Shown here: piece by piece, positions 7,139-28,088 of the stretch | How the letters are laid out: every line of letters starts with the position of its first letter | Numbering within the stretch: position 1 is the first letter of the stretch | NCBI RefSeq assembly: GCF_000721175.1 | Contig: NZ_JOEZ01000028.1 | Coordinates: forward strand, 1 to 64,000 | DNA from: Streptomyces anulatus | GTDB lineage: Bacteria > Actinomycetota > Actinomycetes > Streptomycetales > Streptomycetaceae | Length of the DNA: 64,000 nucleotides | Direction: 5' to 3' | Made by a program: the position numbers and the translations under genes | The notes under the pieces: generated by a model | The model's input: only the letters and a program-made list of their open reading frames with translations | Databases searched by the model: none | Told to the model about the DNA's origin: nothing

Positions 7139-7636
7139 GTGCTCGACATCGGCTACTCCCTCTCCCGCCGCTTCCCCGACCCCCCGCAGACCGACTACCG
7201 CCGCGCGGACGTCCGCGCGCTGCGGCACGATCTGTTCTCCGGCGACGTCTACCTCGCGGACACCAAGGCGGACCGCGAGGTGTCCACAGCCTGGGGATGG
7301 GTGCCGGTGCTCGACTTCGCGTGGGCGCTGTGCGACATCGTCGAGCAGATCGACCAGGACCCGCGCGGCAACCGCTCGCACCGGCAGCAGTACGCGGAGC
7401 TGGACTTCACCGAGTCCTCGGACCGGATGCTGTTCGAGCGGCGCTTCGGCTGGGTCGACGTCGAGGCGGACTGGATGCCCGGCGACGAGCCCCCGCTCAC
7501 CTTCAGCCACTCCCTCCTGCGCCGCGAGGCCCGCGACTTCCTGCACGACCTGATCGCCGATCTGGCCGACATGCACGAGGGCCTCGCCGACAACCCCGTG
7601 ATCTGGGACCTCCAGGCCCGCTTCCCCCGTTTGTGA
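7139..7636 (+). CDS. Conserved Streptomyces-type hypothetical protein
   Basis: A 165-residue acidic soluble protein beginning at GTG 7139 (MLDIGYSLSRRFPDPPQTDY). I do not recognise a family with confidence. It is rich in Trp, Asp and Arg, has no signal peptide or membrane segment, and carries the segment FERRFGWVDVEADWMPGDE, a pattern seen in small Streptomyces proteins of unknown function. It is divergent from the Rpn-like gene with only about 100 bp between. The 3' end including the stop codon is repeated about three times downstream. Confidence 0.65.
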   Translation: MLDIGYSLSRRFPDPPQTDYRRADVRALRHDLFSGDVYLADTKADREVSTAWGWVPVLDFAWALCDIVEQIDQDPRGNRSHRQQYAELDFTESSDRMLFERRFGWVDVEADWMPGDEPPLTFSHSLLRREARDFLHDLIADLADMHEGLADNPVIWDLQARFPRL

Positions 7637-12564: not shown

Positions 12565-14235
12565 TCAGCGGGTGAGCCGCAGGAGCCGCCCCGACCTCGC
12601 CGCCGCCACCAGCTCCTCCACGGTGGCGAGCTTCACCCGGGGCCGCCCGTCGCGCCGCCCCCGTTCCCGTTCGGCACGGTCGATCGCGGCCAGGCCCCGG
12701 GCGTCCACGACCCGGCGGTTGCGCTGATGGGCCAGGCGCCGGAACGCCTTGGCGTCGCCCGTCGGAGCGGGCAGTGTCCCGGCGACCGCGTCGGCCAGGA
12801 GCGTGCCGACCGTCTCGGCCGCGCAGGTGCGGTTGGCGCCGATCCCGCCGGAGGGCCCTCGCTTGATCCAGCCGGCCACATAGCTGCCGGGCAGCCCCGC
12901 GACCCGGCCGCCCTCGTGCGGGACGGTGCCCGCGGCCTCGTCGAACGGCAGCCCGGGGACCGGCAGCCCCCGGTAGCCGATGGCCCGCAGCAGCAGCCCG
13001 GCGCCGAGGTCGGCCGTGCCCCCGCCGTCCGTGACGCGTACGGAGCGCACGCCCCCCTCGCCCAGGATCTCCACCGGCTCGGAGTGGAACCGGAGCACGA
13101 TGCGCCGGTCCGCCCCTCGACCGGGCGCGGGGGACGCGGCCTCCGTCCGGACCCGGGGCAGCCCACGGAGCACTCCGGCCCGGTCGCCCGCCCCGGCCGC
13201 GTCGATCGCCGCCCCCGTCCGCGGATCGTGGTCGTCCACCACCAGTTCCACGTCCGGCAGATGCTTCAGCGCGAGGAGTTCGGAGCGGGTGTACGCGGCG
13301 TCCCCGGGACCCCGCCGCCCCAGCACCACCACCTCTCGGACCCGGCTCGCCCGCAGCGCCTCCAGCGCGTGGGCGGCGATGTCGGTGCCCGCGAGCGCCT
13401 CCGGGTCGGCGACCAGGATCCGGGCGACGTCGAGGGCGACGTTGCCGTTGCCCACCACGACGACCCGCTCGGCCGACAGGTCGGCACCCTGCGCGACCGC
13501 CTCCGGATGGGCGTTGTACCAGGCGACGAACGAGGTCGCCGACAGGCACCCGGGGCTGTCCTCACCCGGGACGCCGAGCCGCCGGTCCGTGGAGGCGCCG
13601 ACCGCGTAGATCACCGCGTCGTGGTGGGCGGCCAGCTCCTGCACGGTGACGTCCCGGCCCACCTCGATGCCCAGGTGCATCCGGACCCGGGGATGGGAGT
13701 GGAAGCGGGAGAAGGTGTCGCCGGCCTTCTTCGTCGCGGGGTGGTCGGGGGCCACCCCGTACCGGACGAGCCCGCCGGCCACCGGCAGCCGGTCGATCAG
13801 GGTCACCTCGGCGGCGGTGTGCAGCAGAAGATCCTGCGCCGCGTACATCCCGGCCGGCCCGGTGCCGACGACGGCCACCCGCAGCGGCCCGAAGTCGGAC
13901 GGCAGGCTGCGTCCGAAGGCCGGCTCGCCCCAGACATGGAAGTTGGGCCCGTCGACCTCGTCCCCGGTCGAAGGCCGCTCCTCGTCCTCGTAATAGGCGG
14001 CGTTGATCTCCGCGTACTCCCGCTGACCCGCCGGCAGCGCGTCGACCGGGAAGATCGCGTCCACCGGGCAGGCGTCGGCGCAGGCGCCGCAGTCGATGCA
14101 CGCCCGGGGGTCGATGTGGAGCATCTCCGTGCTGCCGAAGGCGCGTTCCTCCGGTGTCGGGTGGATGCAGTTGACCGGGCACACGGCCACGCAGGTGGCG
14201 TCGTTGCAGCAGGTCTGGGTGATGGCGTAGGTCAT
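12565..14235 (-). CDS. Ferredoxin-fused ferredoxin-NADP+ reductase (FprB-like)
   Basis: A 556-residue fusion. Residues 1-80 are a seven-iron-type ferredoxin (CCNDATCVAVCPVNCI and CIDCGACADACPVDAIF). The rest is an adrenodoxin-reductase-like flavoprotein with the FAD motif VAVVGTGPAGMYAAQDLL near residue 128 and the NADPH motif VVVVGNGNVALDVARIL near 265. It ends with the conserved YVAGWIKRGPSGGIGANR segment. It should pass electrons from NADPH through FAD to Fe-S clusters and on to an oxygenase. It starts 9 bp after the AurF-like gene's stop, so a dedicated redox-partner role is a strong inference. Confidence 0.9.
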   Translation of the reverse strand: MTYAITQTCCNDATCVAVCPVNCIHPTPEERAFGSTEMLHIDPRACIDCGACADACPVDAIFPVDALPAGQREYAEINAAYYEDEERPSTGDEVDGPNFHVWGEPAFGRSLPSDFGPLRVAVVGTGPAGMYAAQDLLLHTAAEVTLIDRLPVAGGLVRYGVAPDHPATKKAGDTFSRFHSHPRVRMHLGIEVGRDVTVQELAAHHDAVIYAVGASTDRRLGVPGEDSPGCLSATSFVAWYNAHPEAVAQGADLSAERVVVVGNGNVALDVARILVADPEALAGTDIAAHALEALRASRVREVVVLGRRGPGDAAYTRSELLALKHLPDVELVVDDHDPRTGAAIDAAGAGDRAGVLRGLPRVRTEAASPAPGRGADRRIVLRFHSEPVEILGEGGVRSVRVTDGGGTADLGAGLLLRAIGYRGLPVPGLPFDEAAGTVPHEGGRVAGLPGSYVAGWIKRGPSGGIGANRTCAAETVGTLLADAVAGTLPAPTGDAKAFRRLAHQRNRRVVDARGLAAIDRAERERGRRDGRPRVKLATVEELVAAARSGRLLRLTR

Positions 14236-16166: not shown

Positions 16167-17164
16167 CGGAGGGCCTCCTTGGGCTGGTCGTTCCGGCCGG
16201 GCGCCCCGGATCCGGTGAGGGCGAAGAACACGTCGTCGAGGTCGGGGGTGTGCACGGTCAGCTCGTCGGCCTCGATCCCGGCCGCGTCCAGCCAGTCGAG
16301 GATGGAGCGCAGTTCACGCTGACTGCCGCCACTGGGGATCTGGAGCGACAGCGCCTCGGCGTCACCGGTGGCCTCGCGCAGGGCGAAGGCGGCTGACCGG
16401 TAGGCGTCCGGGTCGGTGAAGCGGAGCCTGACGTGCCCGCCGGGGACGATCCGCTTCAGCTCCTCGGCACTGCCCTCGGCGGCGATCCTCCCGTCGTTCA
16501 GCACGGCGATACGGTCGGCCAGCTCGTCGGCCTCCTCCAGGTACTGGGTGGTGAGGAAGACGGTGACGCCGCCCGCGACCAGTTCGCGGATGATCCCCCA
16601 CATGGTGTGGCGGGAACGCGGGTCGAGACCCGTGGTCGGCTCGTCCAGGAAGATGATCCGCGGGGAGCCGACCAGCGTCATGGCGATGTCCAGGCGGCGC
16701 TTCATGCCGCCGGAGTAGCCGGCGGCAGGCTTCCTCGCCGCCTCCACGAGGTCGAAGCGCTCCAGCAGTTCGGCGGCGACCCGGCGGCCCTCCCGGCGCG
16801 GCAGGTGGTGCAGGTCGGCCATGAGCAGCATGTTCTCCTCACCGGTGATCAGCCCGTCCACGGCGGAGAACTGCCCGGTGACGCCGATCGCGGCGCGCAC
16901 GGCCTGCGGGTCGGTGGCCACGTCATGCCCTCCGACGCGGAGTTCGCCCGCGTCGGCGGTGACGAGGGTGGAGAGGATGTTGACGGCGGTGGTCTTGCCC
17001 GCGCCGTTGGGGCCGAGCAGGGAGAAGACGGTGCCCTCGGGCACCGACAGGTCGATGCCGTCGAGCACGAGCTTGTCGCCGTAGGACTTGCGCAGTCCGG
17101 TGGCGGTGATCGCCTGCGTCGCGGCCCGGCCGGCGAGCGGCGCGGAGGCCCGGGTGACAGTCAT
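16163..17164 (-). CDS. ABC transporter ATP-binding protein (DrrA-like)
   Basis: A 333-residue ATPase. Walker A GPNGAGKTTAV lies near residue 55, the signature YSGGMKRRLDIAM near 150 and Walker B RIIFLDEPTTGLDPRSR near 170, followed by the H-loop TTQYLEEADELADRIAVL. The C-terminal extension of about 90 residues is the DrrA-type regulatory domain ending in TPDLDDVFFALTG. It couples ATP hydrolysis to the permease encoded downstream and is translationally linked to it. It follows the DUF4097 gene by 58 bp, suggesting one operon. Confidence 0.92.
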   Translation of the reverse strand: MTVTRASAPLAGRAATQAITATGLRKSYGDKLVLDGIDLSVPEGTVFSLLGPNGAGKTTAVNILSTLVTADAGELRVGGHDVATDPQAVRAAIGVTGQFSAVDGLITGEENMLLMADLHHLPRREGRRVAAELLERFDLVEAARKPAAGYSGGMKRRLDIAMTLVGSPRIIFLDEPTTGLDPRSRHTMWGIIRELVAGGVTVFLTTQYLEEADELADRIAVLNDGRIAAEGSAEELKRIVPGGHVRLRFTDPDAYRSAAFALREATGDAEALSLQIPSGGSQRELRSILDWLDAAGIEADELTVHTPDLDDVFFALTGSGAPGRNDQPKEALR

Positions 17165-17222
17165 GCTGATTCCCTTTCACGAGCGGTGGGTCGGGCGTGG
17201 GCGGTGCGGGACGCGGCGGAGC

Positions 17223-18113
17223 TCAGGCGCGGCGGACGATGATGTCGCCGGCCCCGCTCCGGGCGTGCACCTCGACGGTCTCGTCGGAGTCCTCGGGACC
17301 GGCGGCGGCGCCGAGCGAGTTGCGTACGGTGCCGAACTTGGGGTTCAGGTCGAGCCAGGCGGCGGTGCCCTCGTGGATGCCCACTTCGAGGTCGCCGACG
17401 GAGGTGCGCAGAGCGATGCGGCCACGGGTCACGTCGCCGACGCGGATGCGCCCGTTGGAGGAGTTCGCGTCGACCCCGGCATGGGCGACGCCGATCTCGA
17501 TGCGCCCGTTGGCCGACTTGGCGACGACGTCGCCGTGCGCGACGCCCACGGAGATGTCGCCGTTGGCCGCGTTGACCTTCAGCGCACCGCCGATCTCGTC
17601 GATCCCGGTCGTACCGTTGCCGTTCTTGACGACCGCCGCCCCGGTGACCGCACCGACCTCGACCCGGCCGGATCCGACGACTTCGGCGTCCCCGGTGGTG
17701 CGGGCCAGCCGGATGTCGCCGTGGTCGGTCCTGAGCTCGGCGCGGGCCGCCTCGTCCACCTGGAGGTCGCCGAGCGAGGTCGTGAGCTTCACGTCCCCGA
17801 GGGGGCCTTCGCAGAAGAAGCCGCCCAGGGCGGAGGTGCCCCGTACGTCGGATCCGGCGGGCAGTTCGATGCTGACCACGACGGTGCCCGGCTTCCCGAA
17901 GAGCGACCGCTTCTTCGGGGTCCTGACGGTGAGACGGCCGCCCGAGCAGGTGACCTGGGTCTGCTGCACGGCGCGCACGTCGTCCTCGTCGGACCCGTTG
18001 CCCGGCAGCACCTCGACGACGGTGTCGGCGCGCTTGCCGGCGGTGACGCGGGCGGTGCCGGCGTCCAGCTCGACGACGGCGGAGATCGGCTCAGGAGTAT
18101 CGAAAGAAGGCAT
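17223..18113 (-). CDS. DUF4097-family beta-repeat protein
   Basis: A 296-residue protein made of short repeating beta strands with the rhythm A(x)GDVxV / SNGRIxIGxAxGxV, as in the DUF4097 (DUF4098/adhesin-like) family: VNAANGDISVGVAHGDVVAK then SANGRIEIGVAHAGVDANSS. Such proteins form a right-handed beta-helix. No signal peptide or membrane helix is evident. Members often sit next to ABC transporters or anti-sigma genes in actinobacteria, as here, but their job is unknown. It lies between the RHH regulator gene and the DrrA-like ATPase gene. Confidence 0.85.
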   Translation of the reverse strand: MPSFDTPEPISAVVELDAGTARVTAGKRADTVVEVLPGNGSDEDDVRAVQQTQVTCSGGRLTVRTPKKRSLFGKPGTVVVSIELPAGSDVRGTSALGGFFCEGPLGDVKLTTSLGDLQVDEAARAELRTDHGDIRLARTTGDAEVVGSGRVEVGAVTGAAVVKNGNGTTGIDEIGGALKVNAANGDISVGVAHGDVVAKSANGRIEIGVAHAGVDANSSNGRIRVGDVTRGRIALRTSVGDLEVGIHEGTAAWLDLNPKFGTVRNSLGAAAGPEDSDETVEVHARSGAGDIIVRRA

Positions 18114-18238
18114 GGCTGTCCCGTCCTCTTGGCTCGGTGAGTGATGAGTGATGGGTGATCAGTGGCATCGGCCGGATCGGCGATCCGCCCGTGAAGTGGT
18201 GCCGCCTGCGGGCCCGGCGGGCCTGGGGCGTGTCCGGC

Positions 18239-18766
18239 TCAGCGGACCCAGCCGGTGAAGCCGCCGCGACCGCCCGCGCCCTTGCCCCGGCCCGGCGCGC
18301 TCGCCCGCCCCCCACCGTCGAGGGAGACGGACACGGCCCGCACGAGCCAGGCGTTGACCGACAGCCCCTCGGCCGCCGCGGCGCTCTCGGCCCGGCCCTT
18401 GAGGTGGGCGGGGAGGCGGAGGTTGATCCGCACCATGGTGTCGTCGTCGGCCTCCGTGCCCTGCGGCGCGGCCACCGCGGGAGCCACGACCGGCTCCTGC
18501 GCCTCCCGCACCGGCTCGGGCACCGGCGGCGGCGTCACCACGAACTCGGGATCGAGCCCGCGCAGCCGTACGTCGACCGAACCGGGCGCCAGCTCCCGGG
18601 TGACCTCACCCATGGCCGCGGAGAGCACGTTGAGCAGGGCCAGCCGGGCGGCGGACTCCAGGGGGGCGCTGAGCCGCTCGGCCAGGGCGCGGGCTTCGTC
18701 GCCGCCGGCGCCCGCGGCGACGGCGAGTTCCCGCCGGAGATTGTCGACGTAAGGGGTGAGGTCCAT
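18239..18766 (-). CDS. Ribbon-helix-helix (HicB/CopG-like) regulator
   Basis: A 175-residue protein. The first 75 residues form an Ala/Leu/Arg helical domain (MDLTPYVDNLRRELAVAAGA), followed by a Pro/Val-rich linker. A C-terminal ribbon-helix-helix domain spans about 115-150: MVRINLRLPAHLKGRAESAA then AAEGLSVNAWLVRAVSVSL. The tail is Gly/Arg-rich. RHH proteins bind short repeated DNA sites as dimers, usually near their own promoters. This gene heads the DUF4097/ABC set on the same strand, and an array of TGGC(A/G)CC repeats lies immediately upstream. The ATG at 18766 gives the conserved start. Confidence 0.8.
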   Translation of the reverse strand: MDLTPYVDNLRRELAVAAGAGGDEARALAERLSAPLESAARLALLNVLSAAMGEVTRELAPGSVDVRLRGLDPEFVVTPPPVPEPVREAQEPVVAPAVAAPQGTEADDDTMVRINLRLPAHLKGRAESAAAAEGLSVNAWLVRAVSVSLDGGGRASAPGRGKGAGGRGGFTGWVR

Positions 18767-18776
18767 GGAGCCATCA

Positions 18777-19002
18777 TGGCACACACATGGCACCACTTCG
18801 AGCCACAATGGCGCCCGACACTCAGGATCGCCCCTGACCTGCGGCATTACCGCCAAGCATGCCGGAATGGCACCGCACAAGCCCCCCGGATGACCAAAGA
18901 TGGCACCACATCGACACCGCGTGGCACCACGCGGCGCACCCCTGCCTCCGCGTGGCACACCCACCCCGCAGCCGAAGCCGGACGCACCGACGGCTGGCGC
19001 CA
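18777..19002. repeat. Array of TGGC(A/G)CC repeats, candidate RHH operator array
   Basis: Eight direct copies on the plus strand begin at 18777, 18788, 18809, 18868, 18901, 18922, 18953 and 18995. Three read TGGCACCAC in full and two are TGGCGCC. Most intervals (11, 21, 33, 21, 31, 42) are close to whole helical turns; one (59) is not. The array fills the gene-free stretch before the RHH gene; the rest of 18767-19053 shows nothing else. Confidence 0.6.
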
Positions 19003-19053
19003 CGCGCGCGAAACAACCGGGCGTGCGCCGCCCGAAGCCGCCCGGAAATGAAT

Positions 19054-19088
19054 GAAGCTCAGGTCAGAGCGCATCCGACCTGAGCTTC
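19054..19088. terminator. 12-bp-stem hairpin next to the tRNA fragment
   Basis: GAAGCTCAGGTC (19054-19065) pairs perfectly with GACCTGAGCTTC (19077-19088). It sits 5 bp beyond the truncated tRNA-Thr 3' copy, where a tRNA terminator would lie. It is probably the original tRNA-Thr terminator, displaced by insertion of the island. Confidence 0.7.
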
Positions 19089-19093
19089 ACGCT

Positions 19094-19136
19094 GAGCCCC
19101 CTGTCGGATTCGAACCGACGACCTACGCAATACAAG
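19094..19136 (-). repeat. Duplicated 3' part of tRNA-Thr (distal attachment repeat)
   Basis: A 43-bp stretch matches 25273-25315 with one mismatch (at 19130). It runs from the discriminator end through the T-arm to the anticodon stem, then diverges. The 5' half of a tRNA is missing here, so this is not a working tRNA gene but the second attachment-site copy left by integration into the complete gene at 25274-25347. Confidence 0.85.
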
Positions 19137-19365
19137 GGCAGCACATCGGCCATGATGACCCCTCCCATGATCATTACTGAGAGTTGTTATCTCATGACTC
19201 TGGGTACTCATGGTCGCGGTTGCCTGAACGACGATTGCGCTACGCCGGAGGACCTTCATCTGGCTGCCCTCGGGAGTGGGCGGAGCGGTGGGACCACAGG
19301 GAGAACGGACGCCCCCGAGCATGGCCACATCGTATTCGTGCCCGGGAGCCGGTGGCCTCTCGAGG

Positions 19366-19908
19366 TTAGAGAATCGCCCGGGCGACCCGCTGCCTCAGCC
19401 GCTCATCGGAAAAGCTCTCCACCGTGCGCCATGCTGCATCGGTGACTTCTTCGGCCTGCAGTTCGCCGATGTCGGCAGTGGTACGGAAGAGGAAGCGGAA
19501 GTCGAAGTGCTGATGGGCGGGCTCGCTCTTGGTCGGATCGGCGGCGATGGGGTGGATATCGATGTGCAGTGGGATCTCGCTGTGCGGGGTGACGACCTGG
19601 GGTGGGATGCCGGTCTCCTCGGCGAGCTCACGGCCAGCGGCCTGCAGGAGCGTGTCGTCCGAGGGTTCGATGTGACCACCGGGCAGCAGCCATTTGCCGG
19701 TGGCGTTATGGAGGATGTGCAGGACGCGGCCGTCACGGCCGACGAGGATCGCCCCCGCGGTGACGTGTCCCGGCAGGGACTTGCGGCTGGTGAGGTCGTC
19801 GCCGTCGTCGAGGAGGCCCTGGACGACGGTGATCTCGCGCTTGTCCTCGGGGTGCTGGTCGAGGTACGCGGTGATGGTGGTGCGGATGTGCTGGGCCGTG
19901 ATGGGCAT
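19366..19908 (-). CDS. Nudix hydrolase
   Basis: A 180-residue Nudix protein. The box reads GGHIEPSDD ... GRELAEETGI near residues 75-100; the REUXEEXGU core that binds Mg2+ is intact, while the first Glu of the consensus is Asp. Nudix enzymes cleave X-linked nucleoside diphosphates; the substrate here is unknown. The C-terminal EEVTDAAWRTVESFSDERL segment is typical of relatives. It is last in the five-gene left operon of the island. A GTG at 19917 overlapping the upstream stop is an alternative start; the ATG at 19908 has AGGTGA just upstream. Confidence 0.85.
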   Translation of the reverse strand: MPITAQHIRTTITAYLDQHPEDKREITVVQGLLDDGDDLTSRKSLPGHVTAGAILVGRDGRVLHILHNATGKWLLPGGHIEPSDDTLLQAAGRELAEETGIPPQVVTPHSEIPLHIDIHPIAADPTKSEPAHQHFDFRFLFRTTADIGELQAEEVTDAAWRTVESFSDERLRQRVARAIL

Positions 19909-19913
19909 GGTGA

Positions 19914-21035
19914 TCACCTGTTGAAGTAGGAGAGCCAGGTCGCCGCGATGGCCTCGCGGTCAGGTGCGGAGACCTCGTGGATGCCAGGGGTGAGGTCCCC
20001 GTGGGTAAGCATCCTGATCGCGGCGAGGATCTCGGCCTGGATCAGGAAGATGAACGGTCCAACGCTTGCGCCGTGGATGAAGTTGACGGCATTGCCGCCG
20101 TTCGCCAGATAGAAGTAATGGCCGGTGGTCTGGTAGCGGGTGACGTGGTCGCCGACGACCGTGCGGGTGTAGACGTCCGGCAGGCCGGCGAGGTCGAGCT
20201 CGTCCTCGCTGGAGGTGACGGTGGCGACGTAGGCGCCGTTGCGCAGGTGGGAGAAGTCCTCGCCGCGCAGGGAGACCGCGCCGGTGGCGCAGAGCACCAG
20301 CCCGGCACCCGTGAGAGCGGTCTCACGGTCGCGGGCGACGGTGAACCCCTGGGACAGGGCCTGAGTACGTCGGACGGGGTCGATGTCGAAGACGGTGACC
20401 TGGACGCCCTTGGCGTGCAGGAGCCTGGCGATGGAGGAGCCGAGCTTGCCGAAGCCGATCACCAGGGCGGGGCGGCCGTGGAGGATGTCGCCGCGGCCAC
20501 GCATGACGGCCTCGGTGGAGAACACCACGGACTGGCCAACGAGGAAGTCCTCGGGGTCCTTGAGCGGGGAGCGGGCCACCGAGACCACAGGGCAGGGCAG
20601 CTTGTCGAGGGCGTCGTAGCGGCGGTGGCCGTTCTCGGTGTCCTCGACGACGCCGACCAGGCGACCGGTGAAGCGGCTGTGGAGGTCGGTGAGGGTAGGG
20701 GAGAAGTAGCCCCCGACGTCGAGGAGGGCGACGGATTCTCCGGCGGCCCGGGATTCGAGGTAGTCCAGTGCCGTGTCCGGGTCGGCGAACAGTTCGCGGG
20801 TGAGCGAGTCGACGGCGACGGTCCGCTCGGTCTCACGCTGGGCGGCCGGGTCGACGGACTTCGGCTTGGGCAGCACCGCCGCGAGCCGGGTCATCGAGGC
20901 GACGGCACGGACGAATGCGGGGCGCTCGGCCAACAGGTGAGTGATCAGGAGCGACGAGGTCTGCTCGTCGGGGGCGAACTGGGCGGCGATCCGGGCGAAG
21001 TAGGCGTCCAGCTTGGCGCGTTCGAAGGTTTCCAT
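19914..21035 (-). CDS. S-adenosylhomocysteine-hydrolase-like NAD-binding protein
   Basis: A 373-residue protein with a Rossmann domain like the NAD domain of adenosylhomocysteinase: PALVIGFGKLGSSIARLLHA near residue 205, acidic VTVFDIDP following, then GAGLVLCATGAVSLRGEDF and NGAYVATVTSSEDELD. This resembles AHCY's GYGxVG...ATG segments. The N-terminal half only loosely resembles the AHCY substrate domain, and the protein is about 80-100 residues shorter than bacterial AHCY (about 470). It may be a divergent dehydrogenase-like enzyme. The ATG at 21035 follows GAGGGA. It lies between an unknown gene and the Nudix gene in the island. Confidence 0.75.
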   Translation of the reverse strand: METFERAKLDAYFARIAAQFAPDEQTSSLLITHLLAERPAFVRAVASMTRLAAVLPKPKSVDPAAQRETERTVAVDSLTRELFADPDTALDYLESRAAGESVALLDVGGYFSPTLTDLHSRFTGRLVGVVEDTENGHRRYDALDKLPCPVVSVARSPLKDPEDFLVGQSVVFSTEAVMRGRGDILHGRPALVIGFGKLGSSIARLLHAKGVQVTVFDIDPVRRTQALSQGFTVARDRETALTGAGLVLCATGAVSLRGEDFSHLRNGAYVATVTSSEDELDLAGLPDVYTRTVVGDHVTRYQTTGHYFYLANGGNAVNFIHGASVGPFIFLIQAEILAAIRMLTHGDLTPGIHEVSAPDREAIAATWLSYFNR

Positions 21036-21086
21036 CTCAGTTCCCTCTCGTCCGTACAACCGGAACGTGCAGGAGGTTTCAGGCGG

Positions 21087-21557
21087 TCAGCGGGTGCGGG
21101 CCATCCCGTACAGCAGCCGGTCGGACCGGCTTGCCGTACCCAGGTAGGTGTCGAGCTGGGATGCGTCGGCGGACTGCGACAACGATTCCAAGCCGAGCAG
21201 GAGAACGGCTGTGCCGGTGCGGGCGACCAGAGCCGTCCAGGCGGGGCGGCTCGGCAGCCGCAGCCTGTGGAAGGCGCCGGGGAAGTGCAGAAACACTTGG
21301 TCGCCAATGATGTGCAGGCAGCGGCCGGCGTCCGGAACCACGTCCTCTGCCCGGCCCAGTCCGCCGAGGCTGTCCGCGAGACACCGCATGCGGGCTTCGA
21401 GCGCGTCAGCGGTGTCGGGGAGAGCCGGGGCAGGACTGTGCGTGATCAGGATGTGGGCGATCTCGCGGTCGTCCGGACCGATGCCCGGCCAGCTCCAAGC
21501 AGCGAGCGAGAGCAGTAGTCGGGGCTCAGGTCCGGTCGGAGTAGGGATGGCGGTCAC
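21087..21557 (-). CDS. Unknown island protein
   Basis: A 156-residue soluble protein, GTG start at 21557 overlapping the previous stop (GTGA), with GGGAACCGG upstream. I recognise no family. Visible features: an N-terminal LLLSLAAWSWPG, DDREIAHILITHSPAPALPD, a central GDQVFLHFPGAFHRLRLPSR and a helical C-terminus (SDRLLYGMART). There is no signal peptide or zinc motif. Tight coupling to the RsbW-like ATPase gene suggests a joint function. Confidence 0.6.
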   Translation of the reverse strand: MTAIPTPTGPEPRLLLSLAAWSWPGIGPDDREIAHILITHSPAPALPDTADALEARMRCLADSLGGLGRAEDVVPDAGRCLHIIGDQVFLHFPGAFHRLRLPSRPAWTALVARTGTAVLLLGLESLSQSADASQLDTYLGTASRSDRLLYGMARTR

Positions 21558-21967
21558 GCCCGGTTCCCTCCCGCGCCCTTGAAGGAGGACCAAACGATCT
21601 TCCCGAAAGGCGTGCGGTCCTGCACTCCCCAGTCGTCGGCGAGCGCGGCCACCAGGACCAGGCCGCGTCCGGACAGGTCGGTGTCGGCGGCCTCACGCGT
21701 CTTGGGGCGTTCGCGGCGGCTGTCGTGCACCTCCAGGCGTACGCCGTCGTCCTCGGCGTCGAGGCGGACCAGGAATCCGTGGTCGGAGACGGTGCCGTGG
21801 ACCAGCGCGTTCGTCGCCAGCTCGGAGACGCAGAGACGGACATCGTCGATCCGTTCACCACGGCCCCACCCGGCCAGGGTCGCGGTGGCGAATTCCCGCG
21901 CCTGTTGGACGGATTTGGGAGTGACCTCGAAGAAGCGCTGGTCCGTTTCGATCATGGGTGTCCTCAT
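21554..21967 (-). CDS. RsbW-type ATP-binding protein (HATPase_c_2)
   Basis: A 137-residue GHKL-fold protein of the anti-sigma/serine-kinase-like type. The N box is CVSELATNALVHGTVS near residue 45, the G1 box LEVHDSRRERP near 75, and the G2 region LSGRGLVLVAALADDWG near 95. In Streptomyces such small ATPases are very often encoded beside XRE regulators, as in this island. A 4-bp ATGA overlap joins it to the upstream gene and a GTGA overlap to the downstream gene. Confidence 0.85.
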   Translation of the reverse strand: MRTPMIETDQRFFEVTPKSVQQAREFATATLAGWGRGERIDDVRLCVSELATNALVHGTVSDHGFLVRLDAEDDGVRLEVHDSRRERPKTREAADTDLSGRGLVLVAALADDWGVQDRTPFGKIVWSSFKGAGGNRA

Positions 21968-22392
21968 GACTCGGCGTCCAGGAGGCGGGCGGGTCCGCAG
22001 CCGTGGCGGGGAGCAGTGCCACTGGAGGCGCCCGACGCGCGCGCAGGGCAGGGCCGCCGGACGAGCAGTAGCCGGGAGCCGGCCGCCTCAATCCACCGAC
22101 CGCGCTCAGCGGCTATCGCCTTCGGGCCAAGGTGGGACGCGGCCGGGGCGAGTACGCCGTAGACGTCCGGCAGGGCCAACACGTCCAGCAGACCAGTGAA
22201 GGCCGCCGAACCGGGTCCGGCACTCGCCTCGCGATCAGTGAAGACGCCGGACAGCTCCAGCTCGTGCCTGCGGCAGTACTCGGCGAGCGAGGCGGCCAGC
22301 GCCTCTTGCCTGGCTTCGGAGACCCGCACCAGCCGCAGGAATCCGTAGATGACAGGCCCGCTGACCGGGCGATGTTCCGTGAGGGGTTCCAT
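21964..22392 (-). CDS. Resolvase-N-terminal-like protein, probably non-catalytic
   Basis: A 142-residue protein resembling the catalytic N-domain of serine recombinases: YGFLRLVRVSEARQEALAAS, CRRHELELSGVFTDREASAG, AFTGLLDVLALPDVYGVLAP and RGRWIEAAGSRLLLVRR follow the strand-helix order of that fold. The Arg-rich LDRL(S/G)R motif is replaced by SHLGP, and no DNA-binding C-domain is present, so recombination is unlikely. It heads the left operon, with the divergent XRE gene 153 bp away. The ATG at 22392 has no good ribosome-binding site. Confidence 0.55.
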   Translation of the reverse strand: MEPLTEHRPVSGPVIYGFLRLVRVSEARQEALAASLAEYCRRHELELSGVFTDREASAGPGSAAFTGLLDVLALPDVYGVLAPAASHLGPKAIAAERGRWIEAAGSRLLLVRRPCPARASGASSGTAPRHGCGPARLLDAES

Positions 22393-22545
22393 GCTGGGGA
22401 CCGTCCAAGGAGTCGGCAGGTGGTGACGCTCCTGAGCATGGAGGTCCCCGAACTCCTGGCCAATCACCCGTCGTTCTACTTCCGTTCCACTTCCGTCCCG
22501 CCGCCCCCGGGCATCTGCTTCGATGACGGTGGAAGGGAGCAAGGC

Positions 22546-23646
22546 GTGGCAACCGTGCACCACTGGACCGGCCTGGAGGCCAGGGCTCTGCGTCTCGCTC
22601 TACGTCTGAGCGTGCGGGCCTTTGCCGAGCACCTCGGTGTGGCCGTCGCGACGGTCTCGAAGTGGGAGAGCAAGCGCGCCGAGACCGAGCCCAGACCTGA
22701 CACCCAGGCCATCCTCGACACCGCCCTCGGACGCGCTGACGCTCCCGCCCACCTGCGTTTCGAGACCCTCCTGTCCGAGATGGCCAGCACCGTGCAGAAC
22801 GCCGGGCGGCGCGTCACCACTGCCGGCCCGCGAGCTTGGGAGTACGAATCGTGGGCCGAGGACCTGGACCGCGTGGTGGTCGCGCTCTCCCGCCAGAACT
22901 TCGCCTTCGCCGACAGCCTGCTCAGCCGCTGGCTGACGCGGTACGACGCCAGGGAAATGGACGAGAAGGGCCTGTACCTTTTCGCCCGATCGACTGCGCT
23001 GCTCGGTGACGTCAAACGCGACCAAGGCGCTGTGCTCGGACCACTCTCCGCCCAGCACTCCTACACCAGGGCGCGCGCGGTCTTCACCCAGCTCGACATC
23101 CCGCGACGTGTCGCGCAGCTCGACCTTTCCCTCGCGGTGATCACGGAAATGTCCGGCAGCCTGGAGGTTGCCGCCCGCCACTACGAAGCCCTCGCCGTCG
23201 ACGACCGGCTCTCCCGTCGGGACCGTGCCAGGGCCCGCCTGTGGGTGGGCACGGCGCTGAGCAAGAACGGTCGGCACGACTACGCGACCCGCGTCATGCA
23301 GGCCGCGACCCGCGACTTCGAGGACCTCACCGAACCCGACGACTGGTCGGTGGCCCACCAGAAACTAGCCCTTGCCCGCCGAGGTGCCGACGACCTCACC
23401 CAAGCCCTGCACTACATCGACATCGCCCGCGGCAGTGGAGCCACCGACTCACCGATGCAACGCGTACGGCTGGATACCGCCCATGGCCACATCCTGCTCT
23501 CCGACACGGCGACCCGGGATGATGGGCTCCTTGTCCTCGATCGGGCCACGCGCACGGCCGCGCAGTATGGACTCGTCCACCAATTGCGCAGTATCGAGGG
23601 CATCAAGGCCATGAACGAGGGGTCGACCGGCCCCCGGCGACGGTGA
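22546..23646 (+). CDS. XRE-family regulator with TPR-like C-terminus
   Basis: A 366-residue protein. The N-terminal HTH (about 5-65) is LRLALRLSVRAFAEHLGVAV then ATVSKWESKRAETEPRPD. The remaining 280 residues are an all-helical TPR-like region typical of long Streptomyces XRE regulators that read peptide or small-ligand signals. The GTG at 22546 follows GGAAGGGAGC. It heads the plus-strand operon of the island and is divergent from the resolvase-like/RsbW-like operon, so it may control both through the 153-bp intergenic space. Confidence 0.82.
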   Translation: MATVHHWTGLEARALRLALRLSVRAFAEHLGVAVATVSKWESKRAETEPRPDTQAILDTALGRADAPAHLRFETLLSEMASTVQNAGRRVTTAGPRAWEYESWAEDLDRVVVALSRQNFAFADSLLSRWLTRYDAREMDEKGLYLFARSTALLGDVKRDQGAVLGPLSAQHSYTRARAVFTQLDIPRRVAQLDLSLAVITEMSGSLEVAARHYEALAVDDRLSRRDRARARLWVGTALSKNGRHDYATRVMQAATRDFEDLTEPDDWSVAHQKLALARRGADDLTQALHYIDIARGSGATDSPMQRVRLDTAHGHILLSDTATRDDGLLVLDRATRTAAQYGLVHQLRSIEGIKAMNEGSTGPRRR

Positions 23647-23660
23647 CCAGGGAGAGACGC

Positions 23661-24329
23661 GTGAGCGACAAGCAGCAGGCCATCACCGAGGACCAGTGGC
23701 ACCGGGCCGCGCTCATCTGGGACTACCACCAGATGCACCACCAGTTGCGGCCCGTCGACGTGGCGATCGGCCTGGGCAGCCACGACCTCGGCGTCGCCAC
23801 GCACTCCGCCGAGCTGTACCGCGCCGGACTCTTCTCGACCCTGGTCTTCACCGGCGGCAACAGCCCCACCACCGCCAAGGTCTTCCCCCGAGGCGAGGCC
23901 GTCCACTTCCGCGAGCACGCCATCTACCTCGGCGTACCCGCAGAGGCGATCCTGCTGGAACCGGACGCCGGCAACACGGGGCAGAACATCACTCTCTCCC
24001 GTCAGGTCCTTGCCGCCGCCGGTATCCACCCGACGACGGTGCTGCTGGTCTCCAAGCCCTATATGGAACGGCGGTCGTTCGCGACCGCCCGCAAGCTCTG
24101 GCCCGACGTCGAGATTCTCTGCGCGTCGGAGCCGTTGGAGCTCGACGACTACGTGAAGTCCATCGGCGACGAGAAGCTCGTGCTGGACATGCTCGTCGGC
24201 GATCTCCAGCGGGTCATCGAGTATCCGAAGCTCGGTTTCGCCATCGAGCAGGAGGTCCCGGAGGACGTGCATGCAGCGTACGAATCCCTCATCCGTGATG
24301 GCTTCATCAGCCGTCTCATCGCTTCCTGA
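23661..24329 (+). CDS. YdcF/DUF218-family protein
   Basis: A 222-residue cytosolic DUF218 protein related to YdcF. The family pattern is clear: DVAIGLGSHDLGVATHSAEL near residue 40, LFSTLVFTGGNSP, EPDAGNTGQNITLSRQVL near 115 and TTVLLVSKPYMERRSFATA. YdcF of E. coli binds S-adenosylmethionine, and SanA/ElyC relatives affect the envelope, but the enzymatic role is unsettled. No membrane helix is present. The GTG at 23661 follows GGGAG at 7 nt; a GTG at 23643 overlapping the XRE stop is an alternative. Confidence 0.85.
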   Translation: MSDKQQAITEDQWHRAALIWDYHQMHHQLRPVDVAIGLGSHDLGVATHSAELYRAGLFSTLVFTGGNSPTTAKVFPRGEAVHFREHAIYLGVPAEAILLEPDAGNTGQNITLSRQVLAAAGIHPTTVLLVSKPYMERRSFATARKLWPDVEILCASEPLELDDYVKSIGDEKLVLDMLVGDLQRVIEYPKLGFAIEQEVPEDVHAAYESLIRDGFISRLIAS

Positions 24330-25047
24330 CCTGCCGGAGTCGGGCGGGCTGTGTGCCATCCACCAGCCCAATCTGTTCCCGAGACTGACGACGCTGGCCA
24401 AGCTGTTCGCGGCGGACTACTGGATCGTCCTGGACGACGTGCAGTTCACCCGCCGCGACTACCAGCACCGAGCCCGCCTCGGCGACCTCGACGAATCGGA
24501 CCGTCGGCAGTGGATCACCGTCCCTACCCGCCTCCCCCATGGACGTCCGACGCTCATCCGGGACACGTTGATCGACGATCCCGACCGGGCCTGCCGCAAA
24601 ACTGCGGGGATGCTGCGGCAGTACTACGGTGCGAGCCCCTACTGGCCCGCTCTCGCACAGGCCCTGGCCCCAGTACTGGATGCCTTCGGTACGGGCAGGA
24701 CCGCCACGGTCGCCGAAACCTCCACGCGTGCTCTGCTCGGCCTGCTCGGCTGGCAGGGCGAGATCCTCACCGGCAGCGATCTGCCCTCCCGGCCAGGGCG
24801 TTCCCAGCGGCTCGCCGATCTCTCCGCCATCACCGGTGCCCGCGCCTATCTCTGCGGAACCGGCGGCATGGCGTACCTCGACCCGGCACCGTTCGCCGCC
24901 GAGGGCATCGCCGTCACGCCGTTCCGGCCGCCGACGACCGGCATCTGGTCCTCCGGTCGGAGTCTCAGTTCGCTCGGGGCATTGGCGGCACTCGGCCCTC
25001 AGGAGGTGGCCACCATCATGCAGAGGCTCGCCTCGGACCACGCCTGA
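24271..25047 (+). CDS. WbqC-family protein
   Basis: A 258-residue WbqC-like protein. The hallmark N-terminus is CAIHQPNLFPRLTTLAKLF near residue 28, followed by DYWIVLDDVQFTRRDYQHRA, and ITVPT... and RLADLSAITGARAYLCGTGG lie further on. WbqC proteins occur in O-antigen and other sugar-modification loci and are thought to act as acyl- or glycine-transfer-type enzymes; mechanism unproven. The gene overlaps the end of the ydcF-like gene by 59 bp; the ATG at 24271 has GGAGG 6 nt upstream. It ends the island's right operon. Confidence 0.85.
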   Translation: MQRTNPSSVMASSAVSSLPDLPESGGLCAIHQPNLFPRLTTLAKLFAADYWIVLDDVQFTRRDYQHRARLGDLDESDRRQWITVPTRLPHGRPTLIRDTLIDDPDRACRKTAGMLRQYYGASPYWPALAQALAPVLDAFGTGRTATVAETSTRALLGLLGWQGEILTGSDLPSRPGRSQRLADLSAITGARAYLCGTGGMAYLDPAPFAAEGIAVTPFRPPTTGIWSSGRSLSSLGALAALGPQEVATIMQRLASDHA

Positions 25048-25233
25048 TGGCGGCCGCCGCTTGACCGCGGCCTGTGGGCGACTGTTCCGGATCAGCGGTG
25101 TGCGCGGGTCGGCCGACTCGTGGGAGTCCCGGCCGGTGTCGGCGGCCGGTCGCTGCGGGAAGGGGCGCCGACGGCTGATGCGGTAGTGCTTCGGTACCCC
25201 GACAGTGTGCCCCGTCATGCCCTGCGCAACAGA

Positions 25234-25268
25234 AAACCCCAGGTCACGGGCTATGTGACCTGGGGTTT
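25234..25268 (-). terminator. Terminator of tRNA-Thr
   Basis: AAACCCCAGGTCAC (25234-25247) pairs perfectly with GTGACCTGGGGTTT (25255-25268). It lies a few bases beyond the 3' end of the minus-strand tRNA and just inside the island. Positions 25048-25230 hold no gene I can support. Confidence 0.8.
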
Positions 25269-25272
25269 CTCG

Positions 25273-25315
25273 GAGCCCCCTGTCGGATTCGAACCGACGA
25301 CCTACGCATTACAAG
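25273..25315 (-). repeat. tRNA-Thr-proximal attachment repeat
   Basis: This is the 43-bp segment of the intact tRNA gene that is repeated at 19094-19136. It covers the anticodon loop, T-arm and acceptor 3' strand. Confidence 0.85.
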
Positions 25316-25347
25316 TGCGTTGCTCTGGCCAGCTGAGCTAAGGAGGC
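25274..25347 (-). tRNA. tRNA-Thr (TGT anticodon)
   Basis: On the minus strand a 74-nt cloverleaf is readable: acceptor GCCTCCT/AGGGGGC, D-arm with AGCTCAGCTGG, anticodon stem ACGCA/TGCGT with loop CTTGTAA (anticodon TGT), and T-arm GTCGG-TTCGAAT-CCGAC. The CCA end is not encoded. Its 3' half is duplicated at 19094-19136, marking it as an integration target. Confidence 0.95.
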
Positions 25348-25524
25348 GTGCCGGGAGCAGTCTAACCAACCTCGCGCCCGCCCGTCCGCGATAAAGGTGT
25401 GCCTCGGACTACTGACAGATCGGGAACCGCCAGGTAGCGTCACGGCAGGTTCGCGTCTGTGGACCAGACCACTCCCTACTCGGATCGTCCGGCACGTTCC
25501 TGCCGGTTGAGGAGAAGATTCAGC

Positions 25525-26661
25525 ATGGCCAGTGTCACGTTCGACAAGGCGTCCCGCGTCTACCCCGGCTCCACGAAGCCGGCCGTGGACCAGCTCGAGA
25601 TCGACATCGCGGACGGTGAGTTCCTCGTCCTCGTCGGTCCCTCCGGTTGTGGCAAGTCGACCTCCCTGCGCATGCTCGCGGGTCTCGAGGACGTCAACGG
25701 CGGTGCGATCCGCATCGGTGACCGCGACGTCACGCACCTGCCGCCGAAGGACCGGGACATCGCCATGGTGTTCCAGAACTACGCGCTCTACCCGCACATG
25801 TCCGTCGCGGACAACATGGGCTTCGCGCTGAAGATCGCCGGTATCAACAAGACGGAGATCCGGGCGAAGGTCGAAGAGGCCGCAAAGATGCTGGACCTCA
25901 CCGACTACCTGGACCGCAAGCCGAAGGCGCTCTCCGGTGGTCAGCGTCAGCGTGTGGCGATGGGCCGGGCCATCGTGCGTGAGCCGCAGGTCTTCCTCAT
26001 GGACGAGCCGCTGTCGAACCTCGACGCCAAGCTCCGTGTCTCCACCCGTACGCAGATCGCCTCGCTGCAGCGCCGCCTCGGCATCACCACCGTGTACGTC
26101 ACCCACGACCAGGTCGAGGCCCTCACCATGGGCGACCGGGTCGCGGTGCTGAAGGACGGGCTGCTCCAGCAGGTCGACTCGCCGCGCAACATGTACGACC
26201 GCCCCGCGAACCTCTTCGTCGCCGGCTTCATCGGCTCCCCCGCGATGAACCTCGTCGAGGTCCCGATCACCGACGGCGGCGTGAAGTTCGGCAACAGCGT
26301 CGTCCCGGTCTCCCGCGAGGCGCTCTCCGCCGCCGCGGACCGTGGCGACACCACCGTCACGGTCGGCATCCGCCCCGAGCACTTCGACATCGTCGAGCAC
26401 GGTGGCGCCGCCGCCAAGTCGCTGACCAAGGACGCCTCCGACGCGCCGGCCGGTCTCGCCGTCTCCGTCAACGTCGTCGAGGAGCTCGGCGCCGACGGCT
26501 TCGTCTACGGCGGCGCCCAGGTCGCCGGCGAGCACAAGGACCTGGTCGTCCGTGTCGGCGGCCGTGCCGTCCCGGAGAAGGGCACCGAGCTGCACGTCGT
26601 CCCGCGCCCGGACGAGCTGCACGTCTTCGCGACCTCCACCGGTGAGCGGCTCACCAACTGA
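25525..26661 (+). CDS. msiK: Multiple-sugar ABC importer ATPase MsiK
   Basis: A 378-residue ATPase of the MalK/UgpC group. Walker A VGPSGCGKSTSLRML is near residue 37, the signature LSGGQRQRVAMGRAIVREPQ near 135 and Walker B FLMDEPLSNLDAKLR near 155, followed by the H-loop VTHDQVEALTMGDRVAVLKD. The C-terminal TOBE-type regulatory domain starts near 240. In Streptomyces MsiK is the shared energy-coupling subunit of several sugar importers (maltose, cellobiose, xylobiose and others) whose own operons lack an ATPase. It stands alone here, as expected. A perfect GC-rich hairpin follows. Confidence 0.95.
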   Translation: MASVTFDKASRVYPGSTKPAVDQLEIDIADGEFLVLVGPSGCGKSTSLRMLAGLEDVNGGAIRIGDRDVTHLPPKDRDIAMVFQNYALYPHMSVADNMGFALKIAGINKTEIRAKVEEAAKMLDLTDYLDRKPKALSGGQRQRVAMGRAIVREPQVFLMDEPLSNLDAKLRVSTRTQIASLQRRLGITTVYVTHDQVEALTMGDRVAVLKDGLLQQVDSPRNMYDRPANLFVAGFIGSPAMNLVEVPITDGGVKFGNSVVPVSREALSAAADRGDTTVTVGIRPEHFDIVEHGGAAAKSLTKDASDAPAGLAVSVNVVEELGADGFVYGGAQVAGEHKDLVVRVGGRAVPEKGTELHVVPRPDELHVFATSTGERLTN

Positions 26662-26682
26662 CGCCCCGCCCGCCGTACGCCC

Positions 26683-26721
26683 GGCCCCGCACCCCCGCAA
26701 GGCGCAAGGGGGTGCGGGGCC
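26683..26721 (+). terminator. Terminator after msiK
   Basis: GGCCCCGCACCCCC (26683-26696) pairs perfectly with GGGGGTGCGGGGCC (26708-26721). Confidence 0.85.
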
Positions 26722-26882
26722 GTTTGCGTGGTCCCGGCTGGTTTGGGTTTCGGTGCCGGGCGACGTCAAATACCCCGGCACACAGGGCATTTCGCCCCGG
26801 TTCGTCAACCTCGTATTCGAAAGGGCGCGTCGAACCATCCCCCGCGAGGGTGACGAATTGTCGCCAGGTCATCACTGGCCGC

Positions 26883-26888
26883 TACGCT
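26883..26888 (+). promoter_or_regulatory. -10 element (TACGCT) of a leaderless-type promoter
   Basis: TACGCT ends 6 nt before the GTG at 26895. A TTGTCG is found about 19 bp upstream as a possible -35. Confidence 0.5.
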
Positions 26889-26894
26889 CGCTGC

Positions 26895-27308
26895 GTGACC
26901 CACACCGCGCGCCGCATCGGCCGATCCCTCGCTCTCGTCCTGCCCGTCGTCATGGTTCTGTCCGGGACCCTCGCGGTCACCAGCGTTCCGTGGGCGGCGT
27001 CGGACAACGACTCCCAGCTGCTGGCCGCCTCATCGGAGACCGTGTCCAAGCCCGCGAAGCCGCACGCCCCGCAGGACGTCCTGCGCGAGAAGCTGCTCGT
27101 GGAGCTCCAGGAGAAGGACCCGGGCACCGCGCTCACGGGCCTCCAGCGCGCCGTCGAGCAGCGCCCCTCGCTCGCCCGCCACTGCATGTCGATCGCCCGG
27201 GCCCTCGGCAAGGCGGCCGTCGAGCAGTACGGCCCGACCCGTGCGCACCGCTTCTCCCGGCCCGTCTGCGACACCTCGTTCGCCTCGGGCGTCGCGCAGT
27301 TCAGCTGA
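26895..27308 (+). CDS. Small secreted protein of unknown function
   Basis: A 137-residue protein with a signal peptide: basic RRIGR, hydrophobic SLALVLPVVMVLSGTLAVTS, probable cleavage after WAA near residue 36. The mature part is a helical domain with HCMSIARALGKAAVEQYGP and two Cys that could form a disulfide. I do not recognise a family beyond similar exported Streptomyces proteins. The GTG start lies 6 nt after a -10-like box and has no ribosome-binding site. Confidence 0.75.
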   Translation: MTHTARRIGRSLALVLPVVMVLSGTLAVTSVPWAASDNDSQLLAASSETVSKPAKPHAPQDVLREKLLVELQEKDPGTALTGLQRAVEQRPSLARHCMSIARALGKAAVEQYGPTRAHRFSRPVCDTSFASGVAQFS

Positions 27309-27371
27309 GCCCGGGAGGCGGCCGCGCGGAGCGGTGCCCTCCGTCGGCGGGCACCGCATATCGTGCCTGCC

Positions 27372-28088
27372 ATGCATACGTATCCGACGCAGGCCGTGAT
27401 CCTTGCCGGTGGCCAGGGGTCGCGGCTGCGGCCGTACACCGACGACCGCCCCAAGCCGATGGTCGAGATCCCCGGGACCGGGACTCCGATCATCGGCCAT
27501 CAGCTGTCCTGGCTGGCCGCCGAGGGGGTCACCGACGCCGTGGTCTCCTGCGGGCATCTCGCCGAGGTGCTCCAGGAGTGGCTGGAGGCGGCCGTGCTGC
27601 CGCTCCGGGTCACCACCGTCGTGGAGACCGAGCCGCTGGGGCGCGGCGGCGGACTGAAGTACGCGGCCGGGCGGCTGCCCGATCCGGAGCAGCCCTGGTA
27701 CGCGACCAACGGCGACATCTGGACGCGCTTCTCCCTGCGGGAGATGGCCGCCTTCCACGCGGAGCGCGATGCCACCGCCACCCTCGCGCTCGCCCGGCCC
27801 CGGATCCCGTGGGGCGCCGTGGAGACGGACGCGTTCGGGCACATCACCGACTTCATCGAGTCGCCGCCGTCGCCGTATCTGATCAACGCCGGGGTTTACG
27901 TGTTCTCGCCGGCGTTCACGGAGCTGCTGCCGGACCGGGGCGACCATGAGCGGACCACGTTCCCGCGGCTGGCCCGCGAGCGCCGGCTGGCCGGGTATCC
28001 GCTGCCGAACGGGGCGTACTGGCGGGCCATCGACACCGCGAAGGACCTGACCGAAGCGGCCCGCGAGCTCGGTTCCCCCACCGCCTGA
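27372..28088 (+). CDS. Sugar nucleotidyltransferase (NTP_transferase)
   Basis: A 238-residue enzyme of the mannose-1-phosphate guanylyltransferase / HddC-like group. The nucleotide-binding motif AVILAGGQGSRLRPYTDDRP then KPMVEI is near residues 10-35; the metal-binding Asp is in WYATNGDIWTRFSL near 115. It should activate a sugar 1-phosphate with NTP. There is no hexapeptide-repeat tail, so it is a minimal catalytic domain. The ATG at 27372 follows a weak upstream GTG at 27363. Confidence 0.85.
   Translation: MHTYPTQAVILAGGQGSRLRPYTDDRPKPMVEIPGTGTPIIGHQLSWLAAEGVTDAVVSCGHLAEVLQEWLEAAVLPLRVTTVVETEPLGRGGGLKYAAGRLPDPEQPWYATNGDIWTRFSLREMAAFHAERDATATLALARPRIPWGAVETDAFGHITDFIESPPSPYLINAGVYVFSPAFTELLPDRGDHERTTFPRLARERRLAGYPLPNGAYWRAIDTAKDLTEAARELGSPTA

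Follow-up and report, generated by a model that had tools for sequence, protein, structure and literature searches.

Background

Cis-mobilizable elements (CIMEs) are derived from integrative and conjugative elements (ICEs) or integrative mobilizable elements (IMEs), and are recognized by the loss of the integration and transfer genes and the retention of the flanking attachment (att) sites attL and attR; the available part of PMC5704250 also describes their accretion and treats mobilization in cis as part of the concept. Actinomycete integrative and conjugative elements (AICEs), which are conjugative elements of the TraB type, decay in Streptomyces to a partial integrase, cargo and two repeats, with accretion as well, and one tRNA-Thr gene is used by different elements (PMC9513070, available part). 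DUF3631, or RepAM, is an AICE marker, and one group of integrases sits in tRNA-Thr (PMC3218068, available part); an element near a tRNA-Thr gene is also mentioned in the accessible portion of PMC10711302. Here we analyze a window of 64,000 nucleotides from Streptomyces anulatus (assembly GCF_000721175.1, contig NZ_JOEZ01000028.1, positions 1 to 64,000), in which an earlier note, made from the sequence alone, had singled out positions 19094-25347 as a genomic island in a tRNA-Thr gene. With a probability of about 0.9, this island is a decayed IME, i.e., a CIME, which has kept its att sites and lost its integration and transfer genes.

In what follows, L, G and C with numbers denote fetched loci, genomes and contigs, respectively (the contig of the window is C28 of its own genome), and the eight genes of the island are called A to H.

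The integration site and its empty counterpart

The intact tRNA-Thr(TGT) gene was located by ARAGORN at 25272-25347 on the minus strand, and comparison with an empty site indicates that the element contributed the 3' part of this gene. The gene contains the proximal att copy (25273-25318, minus strand; repeat finding and genome pattern search). The distal copy (19094-19139, minus strand) is the displaced original 3' end of the tRNA-Thr gene: 44 of its 46 bp agree with the intact gene, the first 36 (19094-19129) exactly. Eight reading frames lie between the two copies, and the claim of the earlier note that a duplicated tRNA-Thr 3' part brackets eight genes is thereby upheld. When the genome of the strain (8.40 Mb in 166 contigs) was searched for a 35-bp core of the repeat with up to three mismatches, only the two copies at the island edges were found, and the reversed pattern, used as a control, gave no match; the repeat pair is therefore not due to chance. 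The island has a G+C content of 68.3%, lower than the 71.8% and 72.5% of its flanks.

A terminator hairpin of its own at each boundary, also reported by the note, was recovered by folding. The one at 25234-25269 (minus strand), directly 3' of the intact gene, has an energy of -29.8 kcal/mol (z -4.4), and the one at 19052-19090 (minus strand), directly 3' of the tRNA fragment, -29.7 kcal/mol (z -6.4); none of 200 shuffles of either was as stable. The proximal hairpin is of the type that accompanies the integrase end in related elements, and nearly the same sequence occurs at a tRNA-Thr(CGT) fragment elsewhere in the genome (L125). A homologue of the distal hairpin follows the single tRNA of locus L131, which indicates that the distal hairpin is the ancestral tRNA terminator, now left at the far edge, and that the element brought in the one at the intact tRNA.

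The same locus, L131 of the related genome G115, is an exact empty site with a single tRNA-Thr gene, as the note had suggested might be found in other strains. In it the left flank of the island (17000-19136, 84.8% identity) and the right flank (25273-27400, 96.5%) meet with an overlap of 43 bp; bases 25273-25347 are identical in the window and L131, and base 25272 differs.

The 35-bp core, with up to two mismatches, is present in 187 of 295 genomes of the genus, and by a hand count 45 of these 295, including the strain studied here, have at least two copies; among the matches listed, many pairs are a few to tens of kb apart, and some are farther apart or on other contigs. Twenty single-copy loci were fetched from the exact matches among those listed. 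In all 20 the gene to the right of the tRNA encodes an ABC-transporter ATPase, presumably MsiK, and only in L131 are the left neighbors of the window found directly at the tRNA, so that the left side of the site is variable. Twenty multi-copy loci were picked for short spacing (two of them, L026 and L029, end before the second copy) and searched with an integrase profile built here and with tblastn. Ten have an integrase frame of 400 residues or more, eight have shorter remnants (that of L027 found by tblastn alone), and two, L030 and L036, have no integrase detectable by these searches; integrase decay is thus common at tRNA-Thr(TGT), which is an integration hotspot. L030 (G274:C9:1330400-1346200) is itself an island bracketed by tRNA-Thr(TGT) copies; its cargo differs from that of the window and includes NUDIX- and radical-SAM-like proteins as judged by eye.

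ARAGORN also reports a tRNA-Gly(CCC) of 101 nt in the window (13069-13169, minus strand), a doubtful call in G+C-rich sequence that is overlapped by a long reading frame.

The deletion scar

The proximal edge of the island joins two sequences that are separate in related elements. Homology with locus L046 of S. globisporus ends at 25193, 146 bp past the stop codon of the WbqC-family gene H and inside a relaxase gene; in the L046 alignment, positions 25092-25193 (minus strand) are in frame with the last 33 codons and stop of this gene, which is of the MobA/VirD2 type. From 25192 up to the tRNA the sequence corresponds to what separates the stop codon of a tyrosine integrase from tRNA-Thr in L059, L064, L056 and L199. 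In all, 25194-25271 has matches in L125, L116, L199, L064, L059, L056 and L026, in the stretch that normally separates the stop of a tyrosine integrase from tRNA-Thr or a fragment of it; the L116 match is at the corresponding place, where ARAGORN finds no tRNA, and the L125 match stands beside an integrase remnant in the genome of the strain itself. The matches to the two parental types overlap by 2 bp, which places the deletion junction at 25192-25193. What is missing reaches from within the relaxase gene to approximately 40-50 bp past the integrase stop, about 6.5 kb when sized on L199 and about 8.2 kb on L195, by coordinate subtraction on these two relatives, which stand in for the parent.

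The earlier note had seen no integrase, excisionase, replication or transfer gene. No integrase, excisionase or replication gene is indeed recognizable and no transfer gene is intact, but the 33-codon relaxase tail had been overlooked.

C-terminal relaxase remnants of this kind recur. Of 572 residues, the remnant begins at about residue 540 in the window (taken from the DNA break relative to L046), at 484 in L045, 450 in L116, 355 in L044 and 332 in L184; with five different starting points, the deletions look independent. L105 and L186 have only an N-terminal piece of the relaxase, and L090 has a relaxase match of 46% and no integrase. L045 comes from a different actinobacterial genus (Actinorugispora endophytica); its YdcF and WbqC proteins are 97% and 89% identical to those of the window, and besides the relaxase scar it has a tRNA-Ser(GGA) gene at a distance of 2.4 kb. 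This locus is either a recent transfer or a contamination.

Relationship to mobilizable elements

Relatives were collected by a WbqC protein scan with one genome per species, and 80 of the 117 loci that encode a relative were kept. In the closest one found, L046, which looks like a complete element, genes A to H have the same order as in the island, and positions 19273-25193 of the window are homologous to L046:5003-10925 (91.5% identity over 5,929 columns of DNA alignment). The L046 cargo is followed by genes for a relaxase (PF03432), MobC, DUF2637, DnaB-like, Xre-type and HTH_17 proteins and a tyrosine integrase. In two more complete-looking relatives, L195 and L199, tRNA-Thr(CGT) repeats spaced about 16.3 kb enclose cargo genes C to H, relaxase, MobC, DUF2637, DUF3631 and integrase. 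The repeats of L195 (3034-3190 and 19332-19492) are 78% identical over 165 columns and those of L199 (1422-1508 and 17787-17873) 85% over 87 columns, with 36 of 36 positions matching at the tRNA end. Pfam confirmed the relaxase, MobC, DUF2637, DUF3631 and integrase of L195, and no FtsK-type protein was found among the nine L195 proteins scanned. An apparent DNA methylase near the left end of L195 was noticed by eye.

Altogether 94 loci with the cargo module were examined, two of which, L190 and L191, were dropped for having YdcF and no WbqC match. In 15 of the remaining 92, a relaxase match spanning 400 residues or more occurs together with an integrase frame of 350 residues or longer, although not all 15 are intact, the relaxase of L056 being split over two frames. 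The Streptomyces IMEs L046, L059, L195 and L199 have a backbone of relaxase, MobC, DUF2637, DUF3631 or DnaB-like protein, and tyrosine integrase. The island shares their cargo core and gene order, with the DNA identity to L046 given above, but the whole mobility half is absent.

The strain also has, in C56:1-20000 (L124), a sister IME backbone without the A to H cargo, which aligns with L046 in two blocks, at 98.9% and 90.8% identity. Its integrase is 100% identical to that of L046, its DnaB-like gene is seemingly shorter, and a tRNA-Ser(GGA) gene is found on the same contig.

What remains of mobility functions

Contig C28 has no match to the tyrosine integrase family PF00589, and there are 16 matches elsewhere in the genome; the integrase profile built here found none in positions 12001-38000 of the window. 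Pfam and NCBIfam scans of the eight island proteins revealed neither a serine recombinase nor any transfer family, and Pfam detected no TraB (FtsK-type) gene among them, by which AICEs and decayed AICEs are recognized. The island likewise lacks the integrase and relaxase of its own that define an IME. What it does have is the combination expected of a CIME: flanking attL and attR, no integration genes by the PF00589, built-profile, Pfam and NCBIfam scans, transfer genes reduced to the relaxase tail, and derivation from an IME.

The note had proposed looking for a tRNA-Thr-specific integrase in the rest of the genome. The matching type, represented by L064, occurs there only as a C-terminal remnant next to a tRNA-Thr(CGT) fragment (84% identity over 148 residues) and as one full-length relative (53%) on C16 beside tRNA-Met(CAT), with no full-length helper candidate of this type closer than 53% in the draft genome. 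At C21:60000-79900 (L125), two islands appear to be stacked at tRNA-Thr(CGT), with an integrase frame beside the intact tRNA (19361-19435) and an integrase remnant beside the tRNA fragment near 9545.

Origin of the island and alternative explanations

The history of the island may be reconstructed as follows. An element integrated at the 3' end of tRNA-Thr(TGT), displacing the original tRNA end and its terminator to the far edge. From the 80 bp that survive next to the tRNA, which belong to the L064 type, we infer an integrase of that type. A single internal deletion removed everything from the relaxase through the integrase, presumably after integration and by end joining at the 2 bp of microhomology. 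The island is now probably inherited passively, and would move again only if a compatible element integrated beside it. Such cis-mobilization by an adjoining element is no more than plausible, several copies of the tRNA end being present in the approximately 45 genomes mentioned above.

The earlier note had offered a choice between a helper-mobilized satellite and a fixed remnant. The deletion scar bears out the latter, and the presence of integrase and relaxase in the closest relative found speaks against the former. A satellite would never have had its own integrase and would be excised in trans by that of another element. Consistent with this, both att copies are well preserved, with 36 bp exact, the PF00589 matches in the genome include a 438-residue integrase frame beside tRNA-Thr(CGT) on C21, and three other groups of tRNA-bracketed cargo also have no full integrase. 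However, the proximal edge is a scar and not a designed end, and the closest relative, L046, has its own relaxase, MobC, DnaB-like and HTH_17 proteins and integrase. The potential helpers also fit poorly: the full-length L064-type relative sits at tRNA-Met, the closer one is a remnant, and the TGT and CGT tRNA ends differ in sequence. The other bracketed copies, moreover, differ in gene set and each have at least one damaged or partial gene, and on balance a satellite is very unlikely. Origin from an AICE, suggested by the presence of the DUF3631 marker (PMC3218068, available part) in L056 and L195, is very unlikely, as both L046 and L195 have MobC and a relaxase of the MobA/VirD2 type, no FtsK/TraB-type protein was found among the L046 and L195 proteins scanned (which cover the left-hand cargo in part), and the scar itself is a relaxase. 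As for a stable core segment in which the second tRNA piece arose by local duplication, the YdcF gene is common enough in the genus (E<=1e-60 in 147 of 295 genomes), but G115 has the flanks directly joined and its copy of the module elsewhere, the left side of the site varies (the left neighbors recur in one of 20 single-copy loci), and the G+C content of the island is below that of both flanks. Duplication of the tRNA in place is ruled out by the empty site, and would leave the relaxase tail and the integrase-downstream sequence, both foreign to the site, unaccounted for at the proximal edge; we regard this explanation as practically untenable. A shared core segment and a local duplication were the two outcomes that the note had named as refuting an island, and neither holds.

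Several observations count against a decayed IME, too. The L046 integrase belongs to another group, and the fetched L046 sequence does not reach its att ends. None of the fetched relatives combines cargo A to H with an L064-type integrase at tRNA-Thr(TGT), and the island itself may be a mosaic. For positions 19140-19272, at its left end, the fetched loci gave no significant match. With the genome a draft in 166 contigs, a gap between contigs could hide a helper integrase.

Compared with CIMEs as presented in the available part of PMC5704250, the island likewise keeps its att sites and occupies a site of tandem stacking; mobilization in cis belongs to that concept and is merely plausible for the island, which differs in coming from an actinobacterial IME and in carrying cargo for which we found no paper. 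With the decayed AICEs it shares integration at tRNA-Thr, but those derive from TraB-type elements, while the island has a relaxase scar of the MobA/VirD2 type and no recognizable integrase codon (PMC9513070, available part, for the AICEs). Given the decay described in these two sources, the mechanism is already known, and the island is a new and unusually clear case of it.

The cargo genes

Genes A to E are on the minus strand: A (19366-19914), a NUDIX hydrolase (PF00293); B (19917-21035), a divergent protein resembling S-adenosylhomocysteine hydrolase (PF00670); C (21087-21560), of 157 residues; D (21554-21955), an anti-sigma-factor-like ATPase of the HATPase_c_2 family (PF13581); and E (21964-22392), of 142 residues. 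C and E have no Pfam or NCBIfam match at E<=0.01. The plus strand encodes F (22546-23646), a helix-turn-helix regulator of 366 residues (PF13560, PF01381), G (23664-24329), a YdcF/DUF218 protein (PF02698), and H (24271-25047), a WbqC-family protein (PF08889).

The best NCBIfam adenosylhomocysteinase score of gene B is 81.7 bits, for a match covering residues 99-368 of 373, against a cut-off of 275; by sequence, B therefore appears to fall short of the curated standard for a functional enzyme. For gene H, a structural model with a predicted local distance difference test (pLDDT) score of 88 had no structural match in PDB at E<=0.001, and no solved chain matches its sequence better than E 0.14. 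The AlphaFold model of gene E is unusable (pLDDT 43). A resemblance of E to resolvases, seen by eye, was rejected: among 25 homologues a single one has a Resolvase match, and a weak one (E 0.23), and what we take to be the catalytic serine is a proline in some rows of the alignment.

All eight genes are open in the window, and their pairwise ratios of nonsynonymous to synonymous substitution (dN/dS) relative to L046 are 0.09-0.44. They are probably functional, a regulator with divergently transcribed metabolic or nucleotide-handling genes, although the pairwise ratios leave selection undated relative to the deletion. A regulated small-molecule or nucleotide-related function is our guess. A known anti-phage system was considered and dismissed, the PADLOC matches being weak (A to PDC-S07, E 2.4e-5; B, E 0.0037; F, E 0.0061); phage records gave no WbqC match. 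No published account of the cargo block was found among the papers listed for WbqC, YdcF and NUDIX in Streptomyces and actinobacteria, judged by titles and the beginnings of abstracts, and the available part of PMC13118837 has neither WbqC nor YdcF.

The cargo in other locations

Gene order C to H is kept on the two Streptomyces plasmids that were looked at, and other actinobacterial genera have E to H, in whole or in part, in their chromosomes. Repeats of tRNA type also bracket the cargo in three more groups of loci, where the queries used here detected neither a relaxase nor a full integrase. L201, at tRNA-Thr(CGT), has 88-bp repeats at 94% and a C-terminal integrase piece. L189 and L063 are at tRNA-Glu(TTC), the L189 repeat being 217 bp at 84%, and L098 is at tRNA-Gly(CCC), where there is another small repeat interval in tandem. 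Cargo without relaxase or full integrase is thus known at Thr-TGT, Thr-CGT, Glu-TTC and Gly-CCC. YdcF is open at all four and of full length in L201, L189, L063 and L098, and the regulator gene is open in every bracketed locus but L063. In L189, ARAGORN calls a tRNA-Cys (7294-7368, locus orientation as analyzed) over the displaced tRNA-Glu end and element sequence; this is probably a chimera and not a gene.

Since the cargo occurs on plasmids, on IMEs with different integrases, and stranded at no fewer than four tRNA genes, we tentatively raise the possibility, by no means the likelier one, of an undescribed system whose benefit or addiction keeps the cargo after its vehicle has died. Several losses count against simple retention of the cargo: A and B are absent from L201 and A to C from L189 and L063, H is in pieces in L201 and L189, F is in two frames in L063, and L098 has a partial C and a B split into two pieces. 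L190 and L191, both from G176, have YdcF at 89-90%, and the helix-turn-helix gene is in two frames in the former and unmatched in the latter; such losses indicate that the cargo block also erodes.

Significance

The empty site, the complete-looking relatives, the ancestral terminator and the junction together give a base-by-base view of the passage from mobile element to fixed island, and an integrase-less tRNA island is accounted for here without invoking a satellite. The same cargo at different tRNA genes offers a natural comparison for asking which genes of mobile elements repay retention, and it directs attention to a conserved Streptomyces block made of the regulator, YdcF and WbqC with HATPase, NUDIX and S-adenosylhomocysteine-hydrolase-like partners.

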